A stretch of 27,691 nt of DNA from a virus. The stretch's first letter is position 1; each line of letters opens with the position of its first letter. The stretch lies in IMG/VR virus record IMGVR_UViG_3300020147_000022, positions 1-27,691 of that record. One strand, 5' to 3'. This document shows, piece by piece, positions 7,181 to 22,518 of the stretch. Made by a program: the position numbers and the translations under genes. The notes beneath the pieces were generated by a model, which saw only the letters and a list, made by a program, of their open reading frames with translations, was not told the origin of the DNA and searched no databases.

Positions 7181-8419
7181 ATGAACAACTATCCAATTCT
7201 CGAAACAGTTGACCCGCTCTTAGATATTCTTCCAAACTATCCAACGTTCGCGAAGAAAGAGTTTCCAGCGGCGGGTTTTGGTGTTCTCTGTTACCTCTAT
7301 AATTCACCCGAAACGTTTCCCGGCGCCGACAAAGACGACAATTGGGCGCTACTACGCGAAATGCGCGGGATCAAGTACGATCTACACACCGGGCGTGTCG
7401 TCTCGCGCAACTTCCAAAAATTCTTCAATCACGGCGAAAAACCACACGAATGTCTCTTGACATTCCGTGAAAGCCCGAAACTGATTGCGCGCAAGCCGCT
7501 GAATGACCCGGCTTGGTGGGATGTAGAATTCCTTGACAAGCTAGACGGTTCTATGATTTCGTTTGTGTGGCACAAGTCCCTAGGGCACTTTGTGCCGGTC
7601 ACAAAGAAAGGCTTCAGCGAAGTCGCGAGTGATTGCGACCGTTGGCTTGCGACTGAGTGCGATGCAAGCAAGCGATACATTGCGGCGGTTAGTCACGAGT
7701 ACGAACAGTGTACCCTTCTGTTCGAATGGCTGAACCCCGCCAAGCCAATCGTGCTGCAACACACCGAACCAAACCTTGTTCTAACCGCCGCGCGACACAA
7801 CGTGACAGGCGAATATCTTCACTATGAACTGTTAGAACAGTTAGCACACTACTACAACATTCCGCTTGTCAAGAAGATTGCGCGCGTGAACGGCGCCGAC
7901 TTTAACCGTTTCATTACGATTGCGCGTGAACTACAAGACGCCGAAGGGTTTGTGTATAACGTCCTGAACCACACCGGGCGCGTTGTGCAAAAAGGTAAGC
8001 TGAAGGCAACCCGTTACAGCGAACTACACCGCGCCAACTCCGGTATGTTCACCGGGCACTTACTAGATGCTGTCAAGCTGATTCTTCAAGACGCGCTAGA
8101 CGATTTCCTGCCTCTGCTAACCGATTTCAACCGGGAACGCATGGAAGCGCTAGCCGATCAAGTCAACACAAATCTTTTAGCGTTCTCACAAAAAGTATTT
8201 GACTTCTGTGAAGAAACCCGGTCTTTGGATCAAAAGGCTTTTGCGCTGAAGGTTCAAGCGGAAGTCCCGACTGAACAGCGCAAATACTACTTTAACCTTC
8301 GAAAGTGTAACACTCTTTCTGACCTAGTTGACGGCATGAAATTATCGGTACTAAATCAACTGCACAAAGAGTCAGACGTACCAACCTTTCATTACGTCCT
8401 AGGGAATCAACAACAGTGA
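7181..8419 (+). CDS. RNA ligase, T4 Rnl1 family
   Basis: 412 residues, with the motif series of T4 RNA ligase 1. A RGIKYDL...RNFQKFFNHGE block lies at residues 62-86. Nucleotidyltransferase motif I is KLDGS with catalytic Lys120. LLFEWLN (179-185) fits motif III, EGFV (255-258) motif IV and QKGKLKATRY (270-279) motif V. The C-terminal 120 residues are helical, as in the Rnl1 C-domain, and the length is close to the 374 residues of T4 Rnl1. The enzyme joins 5'-phosphate and 3'-OH RNA ends using ATP. In T4 it repairs tRNA cut by the host anticodon nuclease PrrC together with polynucleotide kinase; no kinase gene is visible here. The end overlaps the decarboxylase gene as GTGA. Confidence 0.93.
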   Translation: MNNYPILETVDPLLDILPNYPTFAKKEFPAAGFGVLCYLYNSPETFPGADKDDNWALLREMRGIKYDLHTGRVVSRNFQKFFNHGEKPHECLLTFRESPKLIARKPLNDPAWWDVEFLDKLDGSMISFVWHKSLGHFVPVTKKGFSEVASDCDRWLATECDASKRYIAAVSHEYEQCTLLFEWLNPAKPIVLQHTEPNLVLTAARHNVTGEYLHYELLEQLAHYYNIPLVKKIARVNGADFNRFITIARELQDAEGFVYNVLNHTGRVVQKGKLKATRYSELHRANSGMFTGHLLDAVKLILQDALDDFLPLLTDFNRERMEALADQVNTNLLAFSQKVFDFCEETRSLDQKAFALKVQAEVPTEQRKYYFNLRKCNTLSDLVDGMKLSVLNQLHKESDVPTFHYVLGNQQQ

Positions 8420-9615
8420 ATGATTACACCGACCGTCTCAAATCACATGCCAAATCGTTAGCTTCGCAACAGACACCTTTTCTAGTTCTGGACCCAAGCA
8501 TTATTCGACAGAACTACATTGATTTCGTGGAACAGTTTAAGACGACTATGAGTCCTTATCATGTTCCCGAAATCTTCTATGCCGTCAAAGCAAATCCACA
8601 CCCGACCTTTCTCAGCGAACTAGTTGACCTAGGGTGTTCCTTTGACGTTGCCAGTGTTCAAGAAATCAAAGACGTGATTGCCGTTGATCGTTTCATCAAC
8701 AAGAAACGAATTTCTTATGGCAACACTGTCAAGAAGTCCGCTGACATTGGCTATGCCATAAAGAAGGGCGTGCGAACCTTTGCGGTTGACAGCCTTGAAG
8801 AACTAGAAAAGATTGCTCTTGAAGCAAAACGACACCTTGGCACCAAGAGTGCAGAAGTCGGTGTTTATGCGCGATTAGAGACAGACGGCAAAGGCGCCGA
8901 TTGGGCGCTTGGTCGGAAGTTTGGCACCAACGGTTCCGTCGCGCTGCAAATTCTCAGCGAAGCACACAAGAAAGGCTTGACTTCTCTTGGTTGCTCGTTC
9001 CATGTCGGTTCAAACCAAAAAGACCCGCTCGCGTGGGTGCGGGCGCTGGAAAGCGTTCAGTGGGTTTATTCTCACTGCAAAGACCTTAAAATCCCATTCA
9101 GTGTTATCAACATAGGTGGTGGCTTCCCGGCTTTTTCGGTTGACAACGGCAATTGGCTCAGTGTATACTCTTACACAATCTCAAAGGCGCTGATTGACCT
9201 TTTCGGGTATCACACGCCACTAAGGATTATGTTCGAACCCGGTCGCGCACTCGCCGCAAACGCTGGCGTGGTGGTCACGGAAGTTGTTCTAAACAGCGCT
9301 TCGCGTGTCTCAAACCAACGTTGGCTAACCCTTGACGCTGGTGTGTTTTCCGGGTTCGTGGAAACCGTAGAAGAAGCAATTAAGTATCCAATTGAAACAA
9401 GCATTGACAATCCAAGCAATGAACTGGTATCATACAAAGTCGCCGGTCCAAGCTGTGATTCAATGGATGCAATGTATCAGAAGCACCAGCCGCGTCTTCC
9501 GGTTAATCTGAAAGAAGGCGACAGGTTATATTTCCTGAACACAGGTTGTTACTTCAGCACTTATGCCACCGTTGCCTTTAACGGCTTCGCTCCACCAACT
9601 GTAATTGTAATCTAA
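8416..9615 (+). CDS. PLP-dependent ornithine/diaminopimelate-type decarboxylase
   Basis: 399 residues of the fold-type III (alanine racemase-like barrel) decarboxylase family. YAVKAN places the PLP lysine at Lys58. SFHVGS (His196) stacks on the cofactor, GGGFP (234-238) and EPGR (274-277) bind phosphate, and GPSCDSMD supplies the Cys347-Asp348 pair of the partner subunit. The region around Tyr379 completes the dimeric site. GPxCDS and the length favour ornithine decarboxylase (making putrescine) over diaminopimelate decarboxylase, but lysine or a related basic amino acid remains possible. It starts with GTG in a GTGA overlap with RNA ligase 1. Polyamines neutralise packaged DNA and affect RNA and translation; a role in DNA packaging or in feeding RNA repair is inference. 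Confidence 0.9.
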   Translation: MNDYTDRLKSHAKSLASQQTPFLVLDPSIIRQNYIDFVEQFKTTMSPYHVPEIFYAVKANPHPTFLSELVDLGCSFDVASVQEIKDVIAVDRFINKKRISYGNTVKKSADIGYAIKKGVRTFAVDSLEELEKIALEAKRHLGTKSAEVGVYARLETDGKGADWALGRKFGTNGSVALQILSEAHKKGLTSLGCSFHVGSNQKDPLAWVRALESVQWVYSHCKDLKIPFSVINIGGGFPAFSVDNGNWLSVYSYTISKALIDLFGYHTPLRIMFEPGRALAANAGVVVTEVVLNSASRVSNQRWLTLDAGVFSGFVETVEEAIKYPIETSIDNPSNELVSYKVAGPSCDSMDAMYQKHQPRLPVNLKEGDRLYFLNTGCYFSTYATVAFNGFAPPTVIVI

Positions 9616-9623
9616 AAAAGAAA

Positions 9624-9704
9624 TCGGCTGTGGTGTCGAAGGGCACGACGACAGGTACAGGGCTAATGCCGCCCGGTGAACGGTTCGATTCCGAACACAG
9701 CCGA
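9624..9704 (+). tRNA. tRNA-like element, non-canonical
   Basis: This element lies in a 117-base gap between two coding genes. TCGGCTGTG and CACAGCCGA form a perfect 9 bp closing stem. Using its inner 7 bp (GGCTGTG/CACAGCC) the body is 77 nt, near tRNA size. GGTTCGATTCC matches the tRNA T-arm/B-box consensus at the expected place, and GTCG-7 nt-CGAC gives a D-arm-like hairpin. GGGC-7 nt-GCCC could be an anticodon arm, but its loop (TAATGCC) lacks the usual U33, and the T stem pairs in only three of five positions. The amino acid cannot be assigned. It may be a degenerate tRNA, a strongly atypical one, or a tRNA mimic. Confidence 0.4.
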
Positions 9705-9707
9705 CCC

Positions 9708-9769
9708 CATCCAACACTATCCAAAAGACATCATGACACATCCAAAAGCAACCATCCAAAACACTATCC
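9708..9769. repeat. Imperfect direct repeat downstream of the tRNA-like element
   Basis: CATCCAACACTATCC at the start and CATCCAAAACACTATCC at the end differ only by two inserted A. A third partial copy (ACATCCAAAAGC) lies between them. The repeat covers the start of the Sm-like gene. It may be a scar of insertion next to a tRNA gene or slippage. Confidence 0.4.
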
Positions 9770-10134
9770 GTATTATGAAGCTGGTATCCGGTGAAGAAAT
9801 CATCACCGAAGTCATGGAAGGCGAACAACAGTTTGCGCTTGAGTACACGCTAATCAATCCGTGTATGATCCTTACGCAACAGACCGGCGTTGCACTTATT
9901 CCTTTCATGCCGTATCTGAATCCCGCTGAAGGCGCCTCGCGCACATTCCCGATTCAGAAGATGCACGTCATGTACCAGACTGTTGCTGACGAACGCTTTG
10001 CGAAAAGCTATTATGACAACTACGGTTCCGGTCGCGTCAAGGCAAGTCCAATTCTGACGCCGAAGAAGGCTGGTCTTCAGCTAGTCACGTCCGGTAATGG
10101 TATTAGCCACACTCACCCCGGCGAAATCGGCTAA
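9733..10134 (+). CDS. Sm-like domain phage protein
   Basis: 133 residues. The N-terminal part IRIMKLVSGEEIITEVMEG follows the phage Sm-like pattern (I.L.SGEEII..V) and leads into the five-strand core with INPCMIL and a C-terminal segment IQKMHVMYQTVADERFAKSYY. Such proteins are common in T4-like and marine phages; RNA binding is presumed from the LSm fold, not proven. The ATG after the tRNA-like element was chosen; an earlier in-frame ATG at 9676 lies inside that element and gives a low-complexity extension. The TAA overlaps the next ATG. Confidence 0.7.
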   Translation: MTHPKATIQNTIRIMKLVSGEEIITEVMEGEQQFALEYTLINPCMILTQQTGVALIPFMPYLNPAEGASRTFPIQKMHVMYQTVADERFAKSYYDNYGSGRVKASPILTPKKAGLQLVTSGNGISHTHPGEIG

Positions 10135-10394
10135 TGAGTGACGCTGTAAACGAAATCACAAATCTCACTATCACACAAGCGATTGATTACGCGCTGAAAG
10201 GCGCGTGCGCGCACCGTCCCGCGTGGGGACTGTCAACCTATATCATCGCTGTCTATCCCGGTCAATACACCGTTCAGTTTGTTGACAACGATAAGCTTCT
10301 TCCGCTACTGTTGCGTTTCTATCCTGACGGCACCGCTGGTCAGTATCTCATGTCAAAAGAAGACGCAGAAGCGAACGATTGGGTAGTTGTATGA
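10134..10394 (+). CDS. DUF2829/Tad2-like small protein, copy 1
   Basis: 86 residues beginning in a TAATG overlap. The pattern LTITQAIDYALKGACAHRPAW, then a beta-rich centre, then YLMSKEDAEANDWVVV follows the DUF2829 (Tad2) layout: F.EAL..L..G..V.R..W at the start and S..D..A.DW.V at the end. Known Tad2 proteins are phage Thoeris anti-defence factors that sequester the cyclic ADP-ribose-type signal. The adjacent gene shares the same plan. The family match is by eye and moderately distant, so ligand binding is inference. Confidence 0.6.
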   Translation: MSDAVNEITNLTITQAIDYALKGACAHRPAWGLSTYIIAVYPGQYTVQFVDNDKLLPLLLRFYPDGTAGQYLMSKEDAEANDWVVV

Positions 10395-10594
10395 CATTCA
10401 AGGAAGCCATAGAACAAGTAATGAGCGGCTATCGTGTTGCTTGGCGCGATGGTTGGGAAACCCCGAACGTGGTTTCGCTTGGTATTGAGGTGGATGAATG
10501 GTGTGACATTTGGTATTTCCTATCAGGTATTGACGGCGTAGGATATCTGTCTACCGTGGAAGACCGCAACGCAACCGATTGGAGAACGGCATAA
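10391..10594 (+). CDS. DUF2829/Tad2-like small protein, copy 2
   Basis: 67 residues in an ATGA overlap with copy 1. MTFKEAIEQVMSGYRVAWRDGW is an excellent match to the start of DUF2829/Tad2 proteins, and the end YLSTVEDRNATDWRTA matches their C-terminal S..D..A.DW. It is slightly shorter than typical members (about 70-90 residues) and has an extra Trp/Cys-rich centre (EWCDIWYF). If it is a true Tad2 homologue it would bind NAD-derived immune signals as a homo- or hetero-oligomer with copy 1; this is inference. Confidence 0.65.
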   Translation: MTFKEAIEQVMSGYRVAWRDGWETPNVVSLGIEVDEWCDIWYFLSGIDGVGYLSTVEDRNATDWRTA

Positions 10595-10595
10595 C

Positions 10596-11735
10596 ATGCT
10601 TCTTGACATTCTCTACAAGCGCACGAACACCGGAGCGGTGCAGACGTGGCGCCAAGAAATCAACGATGCTGGTGACAGCTATCGTACGATCAGCGGACAG
10701 CTTGACGGCAAGCTAGTTACGTCAGAGTGGACGGTGTGCAAGCCCAAGAACGTTGGGCGCGCGAACGAAACCACCGCACAACAACAGTGTGCGTCCGAAG
10801 TGGAATCGAACTACACCAAGAAGCTGAACCAAGGCGGCTATTCGCGCACCGTTGACGTTATCGACAACAGCGATAACGGATATTTTAAGCCAATGCTCGC
10901 GAAGTCGTTTGACGACTATCGTGACTCCGTTAACTTCTTTAACGGTACGTGGTACAGCCAAGGCAAGCTAGACGGTATCCGCGCCGTGGTGAAGAAAGAC
11001 GGCATGTGGACCCGCCAAGGCAAGCCAATTCCCACTTGCCCGCACATCATTGAAGCGCTGCAACCGCTGTTCGCACAGTTTGGTGAAGACGCCGTGTTTG
11101 ACGGCGAAATCTACACCGACCGCCTAGCTGACAATTTCAATGAACTTGTCTCTATCGCGAAGAAAGCGAAGCCAACGGCGGCGGACCTACAGAAGTCGCG
11201 CGAAACGCTACAGTATCACATGTACGACTTTCCGGCGTTTCCCGACAACACCTTTGAAGAACGCTATCGCATTCTCAAGAATGCTGTTGACAAGCTGGAC
11301 ACGGACGTTCTTGTCTGTGTGGAAACGACGCTTGTTTCGTCGCAAGAGCATATGGATAGCCTCTATGCCGCGTACATGGAAGCTGGTCTAGAAGGTCAGA
11401 TGCTCCGCAACGGCAAGTCGAAGTACCAGAACAAGCGCACGAAAGACCTTCTGAAGCGGAAGGAATTTCTGGACAGCGAATTCAAAGTGCTTGACATTCT
11501 TGAAGGCGAAGGGAACCGTTCTGGTATGGCTGGCGCGGTGGTCTGTCTTCTCCCCGATGGTAAGACCACGTTCAAGGCTACGCCGAAGGGCACGAACGCG
11601 CACCGAATTGATATGCTGAAGCGGAAAGCTGCGCTGATTGGCAAAGACGCCACCGTGCGTTACTTCACGCCGACGCCAGCCGGTATCCCGCGCTTCCCGG
11701 TGCTGGTGGCGATCCACGAAACCGACAGGTGGTAA
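10596..11735 (+). CDS. ATP-dependent DNA ligase
   Basis: 379 residues. The N-terminal 85 residues form a WGR-like domain (RTISGQLDGK, SEWT, KNVGRANETT) seen in some phage and viral ligases, which probably helps DNA binding. The nucleotidyltransferase domain follows: motif I KLDGIRA with catalytic Lys124, motif III VFDGEI (Asp169-Glu171), motif IV EGQM (266-269) and motif V LLKRKEF (285-291). The end is an OB fold with KVLDILEGEG. The enzyme seals nicks in duplex DNA, including Okazaki fragments, using ATP. It has a different domain plan from T4 gp30. Start: ATG one base after the Tad2-like stop. Confidence 0.92.
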   Translation: MLLDILYKRTNTGAVQTWRQEINDAGDSYRTISGQLDGKLVTSEWTVCKPKNVGRANETTAQQQCASEVESNYTKKLNQGGYSRTVDVIDNSDNGYFKPMLAKSFDDYRDSVNFFNGTWYSQGKLDGIRAVVKKDGMWTRQGKPIPTCPHIIEALQPLFAQFGEDAVFDGEIYTDRLADNFNELVSIAKKAKPTAADLQKSRETLQYHMYDFPAFPDNTFEERYRILKNAVDKLDTDVLVCVETTLVSSQEHMDSLYAAYMEAGLEGQMLRNGKSKYQNKRTKDLLKRKEFLDSEFKVLDILEGEGNRSGMAGAVVCLLPDGKTTFKATPKGTNAHRIDMLKRKAALIGKDATVRYFTPTPAGIPRFPVLVAIHETDRW

Positions 11736-11739
11736 CACA

Positions 11740-12141
11740 GTGCAGACCTTTTGCGACTATTTCAAGCAACAACGAACACGTAAAGAAGTCTTAAACGTCG
11801 CTATCGCGCGGGAGGTACACGAATCCCTCCGCGCGTGGTGCGAGTCCAACGGCAAGTTCTATTTTCCGCCGTGGGACGACTTGGACGAAGTTCAACAGAA
11901 CCTTTCGATTGAGGTTGTCAACACTTGCCTTTCGCGTCCCGACAAAATGACGCCAGAAGCCATGCATGATCTTTGGATGGAAGTCAAGCGGAAAGACGGA
12001 TGGACGTACGGTCCTGAGTTTGATGATGCCGCAAAGACACATCCAAGCATGGTGCCGTTTGACGATCTGCCTGAATACGAGAAGGTCAAGGATCAATTTG
12101 TTATTGACGTAACGGAACAGTACAGGGAACGACTTGCGTGA
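11740..12141 (+). CDS. RyR-domain protein, GTG start
   Basis: 133 residues starting with GTG and preceded by AGGTGG. The C-terminal half has the RyR (ryanodine-receptor repeat) signature: GWTYGPEFDDAAKTHPSMVP, then LPEYEKVKDQF. Single RyR-domain proteins are frequent in phages and prophages, and in other prokaryotic genes the domain occurs next to nucleotide- or NAD-linked conflict systems. The N-terminal half is a charged helical region with LRAWCESNGKFYFPPWDDL. The ligand is unknown. It lies between DNA ligase and the putative ART, overlapping the latter by four bases. Confidence 0.75.
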   Translation: MQTFCDYFKQQRTRKEVLNVAIAREVHESLRAWCESNGKFYFPPWDDLDEVQQNLSIEVVNTCLSRPDKMTPEAMHDLWMEVKRKDGWTYGPEFDDAAKTHPSMVPFDDLPEYEKVKDQFVIDVTEQYRERLA

Positions 12142-12635
12142 AAATCGACCCTGTACTGTTAGCCAAAGCAACTAAAGCGATTGAGAACTACGTTTTCAAG
12201 AACGACAAGAAATACGCTCTTGAAATCAAAAAGAATGTCAAGGGAATTCCAGACAATTTCCGAAAAGGCGGGACTTTCTTTCGCGGCATGGTTCTAGACG
12301 CTGGGACGGTGGTTTCCATTCAGAACGGCAAGCCGCTTGAACTGTCCGCGCCTAGTTCATGGACGGACAACCAAAAACTAGCTGAACGGTTTGTTACCGA
12401 CGCAAAGAAGAGAACAGCAACTAAAGACGGCGTTGGTGTTGTCTTCAAGAAGCGCATTCCAGACCCCAAAGTGATTGTCAACGTGTATAGTTTCGTGTTG
12501 TTTTTCGACAACATGGGTATGCTTGGCGACTTTGATGAACTGACGAAACAAGACGCGTTAGATGAATTTGAAATTCTCTGTGACAAGGGAATCAAACTCA
12601 CGGACACGGATATTCTGAAGGTAATTCAGAAATAA
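12138..12635 (+). CDS. Putative ADP-ribosyltransferase, GTG start
   Basis: 165 residues with an R-S-E arrangement typical of arginine-type mono-ADP-ribosyltransferases: TFFRGM (Arg49), PSSWTDNQKLAERF (Ser74-Trp-Thr76 with the following helix) and DEFEILCDKG, where Glu143-x-Glu145 fits the catalytic ExE. GVVFKKRI and VIVNVYSF fit the strands between. T4 encodes the ARTs Alt, ModA and ModB, which modify host RNA polymerase, ribosomal proteins and other targets. This protein is shorter than Alt and close to ModA/ModB in size. It starts in a GTGA overlap with the RyR gene and ends the operon. The motif match is by eye; target unknown. Confidence 0.6.
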   Translation: MKIDPVLLAKATKAIENYVFKNDKKYALEIKKNVKGIPDNFRKGGTFFRGMVLDAGTVVSIQNGKPLELSAPSSWTDNQKLAERFVTDAKKRTATKDGVGVVFKKRIPDPKVIVNVYSFVLFFDNMGMLGDFDELTKQDALDEFEILCDKGIKLTDTDILKVIQK

Positions 12636-21963: not shown

Positions 21964-22518
21964 ATGCTATTCATTACTGGTGAAAACCAAGCGGTCAAGA
22001 CAGCGAAGCGCAACGGTGTAACGGACGTTCTTTCGATCAACGACCGCCGTTCGCCCTTCAGCTTCGCGCCACACCCCGGCATCAACGTCTATTGCAAGGT
22101 CTTTGAAGACTACGAAGACCCGAAGCAATGGCGCGCACCAACCGTGAAGGATTGTCAAGACATTCTTTCTTGGTGCCGCACTTTTACTGAAGACAGCACA
22201 GTGCTAATTCACTGTGCCGCTGGCGTGTCTCGCTCTACCGCCGCTGGACTTGCGTATCTGTGGGCAACGGGCGCCGACGATCCGGTTGGCACCATGCGGA
22301 TTGTTCGACCGACCGCCGCGCCTAACCTGTGGATGTCATACTGTTTTGACAGGTTGATTGGCGCGAACGGTGAACTTTATGTTTGCGCACGGGAACTCAA
22401 CAAAAAGAGTTGTTTTGCTTCGTTCGTTGTGCTAGAACGCAAAGCAAGAGCGGCGGACACGTTCCCCGACGAATTCAACAAACAGTTTGCAGCACTTTCA
22501 CAGGAAATCGAAGAATGA
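21964..22518 (+). CDS. Dual-specificity-type protein phosphatase
   Basis: 184 residues. HCAAGVSRS (His83, Cys84, Arg90) is the CX5R active-site loop of cysteine-based phosphatases. The preceding STVLIH strand and following STAAGLAYLW helix are typical of dual-specificity phosphatases, as is the downstream RIVRPTAAPN. Asp51 or nearby residues of EDYEDP may be the general acid. The enzyme removes phosphate from proteins or possibly from RNA 5' ends or lipids, as some family members do. The C-terminal 50 residues are extra and helical. Similar phosphatases occur in other T4-like and large phages. It overlaps the next gene as ATGA. Confidence 0.88.
   Translation: MLFITGENQAVKTAKRNGVTDVLSINDRRSPFSFAPHPGINVYCKVFEDYEDPKQWRAPTVKDCQDILSWCRTFTEDSTVLIHCAAGVSRSTAAGLAYLWATGADDPVGTMRIVRPTAAPNLWMSYCFDRLIGANGELYVCARELNKKSCFASFVVLERKARAADTFPDEFNKQFAALSQEIEE

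Follow-up and report, generated by a model that had tools for sequence, protein, structure and literature searches.

Organization of the locus

Positions 10134 to 10594 are exactly filled by two overlapping open reading frames (ORFs) on the forward strand, P1 (10134..10394) and P2 (10391..10594), which encode proteins of 86 and 67 aa. A preliminary description of this DNA had reported two adjacent, overlapping small genes here, and we were able to confirm this. The ATG of P2 overlaps the stop codon of P1 (ATGA), and the codon usage is in favour of the annotated frame in both cases, with values of +0.136 for P1 (-0.19 to -0.66 in the other frames) and +0.06 for P2 (-0.25 to -0.71). P1 and P2 are coding genes. 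The ATG of P1 in turn overlaps the stop codon of the gene directly upstream (TAATG), a phrog_527 gene of unknown function on the same strand (9730..10134; longest ORF from 9676). The three genes belong to one array, which is tightly packed and probably translationally coupled.

Directly downstream of P2 follows the gene of an ATP-dependent DNA ligase (10596..11735, forward strand; PF01068, phrog_114), which marks a T4-like replication/repair region. The window, by which we mean the whole viral record of 27,691 bases, also encodes a family B DNA polymerase with about 38% identity to the polymerases of T4-like cyanophages, a UvsX-like recombinase, a DnaB-like helicase and a T4 Rnl1-like RNA ligase. 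The closest relatives of its DNA ligase are the ligases of LR756511, Caulobacter phage Cr30 and roseophages. Judged by these genes and by the kinship of the ligase, the record represents part of the genome of an uncultivated T4-like phage. No DNA-level match to it was found among 50,697 phage records.

Several other features of the window deserve mention. The Rnl1-like RNA ligase gene (7181-8419) adjoins the gene of a pyridoxal-dependent ornithine/DAP/arginine decarboxylase (8416-9615, forward strand; PF02784, PF00278), here in a T4-like phage, for which no PHROG match was found. Just 3' of the decarboxylase gene lies a tRNA-like element (9626-9703, forward strand) with a matching acceptor stem and a GGTTCGATTCC T-arm, which scores 16.6 bits against the Rfam tRNA model (gathering threshold 29) and is negative in ARAGORN. 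The forward-strand gene at 12138-12635 encodes a 165-aa protein (phrog_27460, no Pfam match) in which R-G, SSWT and EFE motifs can be made out by eye, resembling a small ADP-ribosyltransferase. At 21964-22518, on the same strand, a dual-specificity-phosphatase-like protein is encoded (PF00782, 27.8 bits, under the cut-off of 33.5). In Ruegeria phage RpAliso (OR257569), a nicotinamide phosphoribosyltransferase gene is located directly upstream of a related DNA ligase gene, in the slot that is taken by P1 and P2 here; this is a single case and may be a coincidence.

Assignment of P1 and P2 to the PF11195 family

Both proteins had been assigned to DUF2829, now the Tad2-like family PF11195, on account of a shared start and end pattern. 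The profile search supports this assignment. P1 scores 27.1 bits (E 6.2e-6 in a scan of the whole library), above the curated Pfam cut-off of 25 bits, and P2 scores 24.1 bits (E 5.3e-5), 0.9 bits under it. PF11195 is the sole Pfam match of either protein, and in a six-frame search of the record P1 and P2 were the only places that it matched. The patterns themselves were approximately right. P1 begins with ITQAI and not with the proposed xEAI. In P2, the G and the W of the start pattern are one residue further apart, and its end, TVEDRNATDW, has T in place of the S of SxEDxxAxDW.

As a control we used a profile of 47 relatives from viral contigs, bacterial genomes and phages, against which the scores were 17.6 bits (P1) and 15.7 bits (P2). 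Of 4,000 shuffles that preserved the composition, the highest-scoring one reached 7.0 bits, and no other ORF of the window exceeded 7.3 bits. Homology is secure since both proteins stand far above these two backgrounds, even though BLASTP found no match between P1 and P2 or between P1 and the Tad2 protein of Bacillus phage SPO1. By these profile comparisons, P1 is almost certainly homologous to the PF11195 family and P2 very probably so. Because BLASTP does not link the two proteins, their kinship is visible through the family profile alone. PHROG 1048 matches both weakly, the matching part being near its C-terminus, and a search of NCBIfam gave no match.

A search for close relatives gave none for either protein, both among the phages and among the IMG/VR contigs searched. 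In the phages, the only match of P1 was in Proteus phage PmP19 (30%, E 0.1), and for P2 there was nothing but noise up to E 10. A match of P1 inside a 1024-aa helicase-like ORF was dismissed as chance, and sequence matches of P2 to Kelch proteins in the PDB (E 0.002) were rejected as driven by the repeats of beta-propeller strands. PF11195 had no match in the four viral contigs whose DNA ligases come nearest to the present one (45-46%), nor in Cr30, LR756511, RpAliso, vB_OspM_OC, phiM19 and S-SCSM1, so that synteny could not be used.

Predicted fold

AlphaFold2 models of P1 (pLDDT 74.0, pTM 0.63) and P2 (pLDDT 76.6, pTM 0.62) were built from an alignment of 19 sequences. The presence of canonical Tad2 members in this alignment makes the models a check of compatibility and not an independent proof. 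In Foldseek, the first 21 rows for the P1 model were solved Tad2 structures (E 5.5e-3 to 0.05, probability 1.00), and a single solved Tad2 chain led the list for P2 (E 0.045, probability 0.99), the E-values being modest in both cases. With VIA-align, Tad2/AcrIIA7 structures were at the top for P1 (Z 7.7-8.9 and rmsd 2.0-3.4 A, with 65-73 residues aligned; first unrelated row at Z 4.4) as well as for P2 (Z 5.7-7.2 and thus under 8, rmsd 3.2-4.1 A, with 66-67 residues aligned; first unrelated row at Z 4.1). The top three matches of the P2 model in BFVD are annotated as Tad2-like. The Tad2 fold is thus supported for both proteins by models of moderate confidence.

Loss of the canonical signature

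Conservation was assessed with 17 canonical relatives, whose alignment has 28 columns with a conservation of 80% or more. Sixteen of these relatives keep 23-28 of the 28 positions and the remaining one 18, whereas P1 keeps 13 and P2 12. Retained in both are A, G, R, W, G, L, D, A, D and W, among them R28, W31, D77, D82 and W83 of P1 and R19, W22, D58, D63 and W64 of P2. Replaced in both are the N, G and K that follow the invariant W and the subsequent M, the MxTA strand end, a P, a W (to Y) and a Q. In the relatives, there is little or no variation in the NGK of GWNGK. The divergence, which had been described as strong in the centre, is therefore not confined to it, as GWNGK, KTADG..PW and SQTD, all of them highly conserved motifs, are also affected.

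The spacing from the conserved W to the conserved D is 46 residues in P1 and, by sequence count, 36 in P2, compared with 51-66 in relatives that bear an insertion and 41 in the shortest ones. None of the members examined is as short as P2, which has about five central residues fewer than the shortest relatives. The signature of Tad2 proper (the residues of RxGWNGKxM, MKTADGxxxPW and SQTDxLAxDW) was looked for, and neither protein shows it, N, G, K, M, T, A, P, W and Q being replaced in both, which is why we place them outside Tad2 proper. By their sequences, P1 and P2 are anciently diverged members of the PF11195 fold family. The earlier family call and the predicted fold are supported, but an inhibition of Thoeris by P1 and P2 would be conjecture, because most residues that are invariant in canonical members, including those of the loops placed around the ligand pocket in the literature, are missing from both.

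According to a review, the gcADPR pocket of SPO1 Tad2 is made up of the beta1-beta2 and beta3-beta4 loops, strand beta4, the beta4-alpha3 loop and helix alpha3, and the cyclic-dinucleotide site of the HgmTad2 type lies at the long central insertion (PMC12043709). 3'3'-cGAMP is not a ligand of SPO1 Tad2 (PMC11722364). The residues lost from P1 and P2 appear to map to the pocket elements given in the review, the insertion of P1 is short and P2 has none; for these reasons no known ligand can be assigned to either protein.

Comparison with known members

The Tad2 protein of Bacillus phage SPO1 (gp34.65; PDB 8SME/8SMF/8SMG), which binds gcADPR according to the PDB title, belongs to PF11195, is similar in size (89 aa) and shares the predicted fold. 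It has G, R, W and D....DW in common with P1 and P2. Its GWNGK, however, corresponds to AWGLS in P1 and GWETP in P2, its KTADNK to FYPDGTAGQY and SGIDGVGY, and its WVPSQTD to SKED and TVED. HgmTad2/AcrIIA7 (PDB 8KBI-8KBM, 9KZR), again of the PF11195 fold, binds 1',2'-cADPR and cGG (PDB titles) and is the sole, non-significant PDB sequence match of P1 (E 1.2). ModTad2 from a Myroides prophage (PDB 9EIB, 8V3E) resembles both proteins in fold, with VIA-align Z scores of 8.4-8.7 (P1) and 6.0-6.4 (P2), but has the canonical motifs and binds hisADPR (PDB title).

Members of PF11195 are widespread in phages, including the T4-like phage KVP40 and the marine roseophages DSS3_MAL1 and MD18. KVP40.0296, MAL1_00125 and MD18 QJA43119 are PF11195 genes of T4-like phages, and the DNA ligases of MD18 and DSS3_MAL1 are related to the ligase found here (41-42%). 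Unlike P1 and P2, these are single canonical copies located elsewhere in the genome: the KVP40 gene adjoins asiA, and in MD18 the PF11195 part forms the C-terminal end of a 145-aa protein, which is encoded two genes downstream of the annotated rIIB. Many Tad2-like domains (L018-L028, L064) likewise do not stand alone and form the C-terminus of ORFs of 130-200 aa.

In one query we found 355 PF11195 places in 351 phage records, indicating that, by this query, several detectable copies in one phage are rare. Among 396 genomes from two bacterial orders, 93 had a PF11195 match (about 95 places) and none had an adjacent intact pair. The sole adjacent pair of matches in these genomes turned out to be one gene with a break that falls between positions 21 and 22 of the profile. 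A precedent exists in phage SpaA1 (NC_018277, 42.8 kb), which carries four PF11195 genes. Two of them, P60 and P61, form an overlapping pair listed in the genome paper (PMC3398947), and one of the two has a divergent GW loop (SIWGGY). The SpaA1 pair differs in that its members score 69 and 86 bits, both far above the cut-off, that P61 is canonical, that two more copies lie elsewhere in the genome and that the phage is unrelated. A tandem PF11195 arrangement is therefore rare, but it is not new. The unusual feature of the present pair is the distance of both copies from the canonical sequence.

Possible function of the pair

The characterised members of the family are sponges, whose protomers assemble into a tetramer and hold signals between them, e.g. 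gcADPR, hisADPR or cGG (PMC12043709 and PDB titles). By analogy, P1 and P2, encoded in the packed array that adjoins the DNA ligase gene of the phage, may capture a nucleotide-type immune second messenger non-covalently in a pocket between protomers and thereby block an abortive-infection system of the host. The ligand or ligands would be other than gcADPR, His-ADPR and cyclic dinucleotides, and the two copies could widen the range of signals or pair with each other. A diverged Tad2-like pair that captures immune signals differing from those known is our best explanation, in which we place about as much belief as doubt. Whether at least one of the two proteins is an immune-signal sponge at all, we judge to be evenly balanced. 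Against a sponge stand the facts that most canonical conserved positions, including NGK, are gone and that P2 is unusually short. That P1 and P2 are a co-evolved pair, acting either as one hetero-oligomeric sponge or as two separate ones, each with a new ligand of its own, and so blocking immune signals not yet known as targets of Tad2 proteins, seems rather unlikely to us.

The main rival to a sponge function is a reuse of the Tad2 fold, P1 and P2 then serving another phage function, e.g. the binding of a host protein, and not acting on immune nucleotides. The pocket residues would have been lost through a changed selected function while the core of the fold (R, W, D...DW) was kept. That both copies have lost NGK, M, TA, PW and Q argues for such a reuse, as does their position in a replication region beside the DNA ligase gene, and PF11195 is broad, one member being also present in the PDB as the type II CRISPR-Cas inhibitor AcrIIA7. 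Functionally characterised members, however, as far as we could trace them, all act in counter-defence, and the same often holds for the small accessory genes that T4-like phages express early. We regard reuse of the fold as possible, but less likely than not. It is also conceivable that P1 and P2 form an obligate hetero-oligomer with an asymmetric pocket, in which neither works alone. Tad2 forms homotetramers from dimers, and the overlapping, coupled genes, the divergence of both copies and the same arrangement in SpaA1, with one divergent and one canonical copy, would fit this assumption. We consider it improbable, given that P1 and P2 are no more alike (24-25%) than each is to other members and that tandem pairs are rare, with 0 among the about 95 PF11195 places in the 396 bacterial genomes.

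The missing central residues of P2 and its score just under the Pfam cut-off might hint that P2, or both genes, are decaying or non-functional remnants of a duplicated Tad2 gene. Yet the frames are open with phage-like codon usage, the terminal motif is intact in both, the tight overlap is retained and the phage is gene-dense and without evident decay, which makes a remnant very unlikely. A chance resemblance between short proteins, to which the empty BLASTP comparisons and the sub-threshold score of P2 could point, is hardly credible, as two different profiles single out exactly P1 and P2 and none of the 4,000 shuffles comes near.

The name Tad2-like refers to a fold, and those members that were solved with a ligand differ in the signal they capture. 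With homology and a predicted fold as the evidence, the pair described here may serve as a probe for unknown immune messengers. P1 and P2 appear to have kept the fold while dropping most of the canonical residues, and would thus be a good test of how far this fold can be re-tooled.
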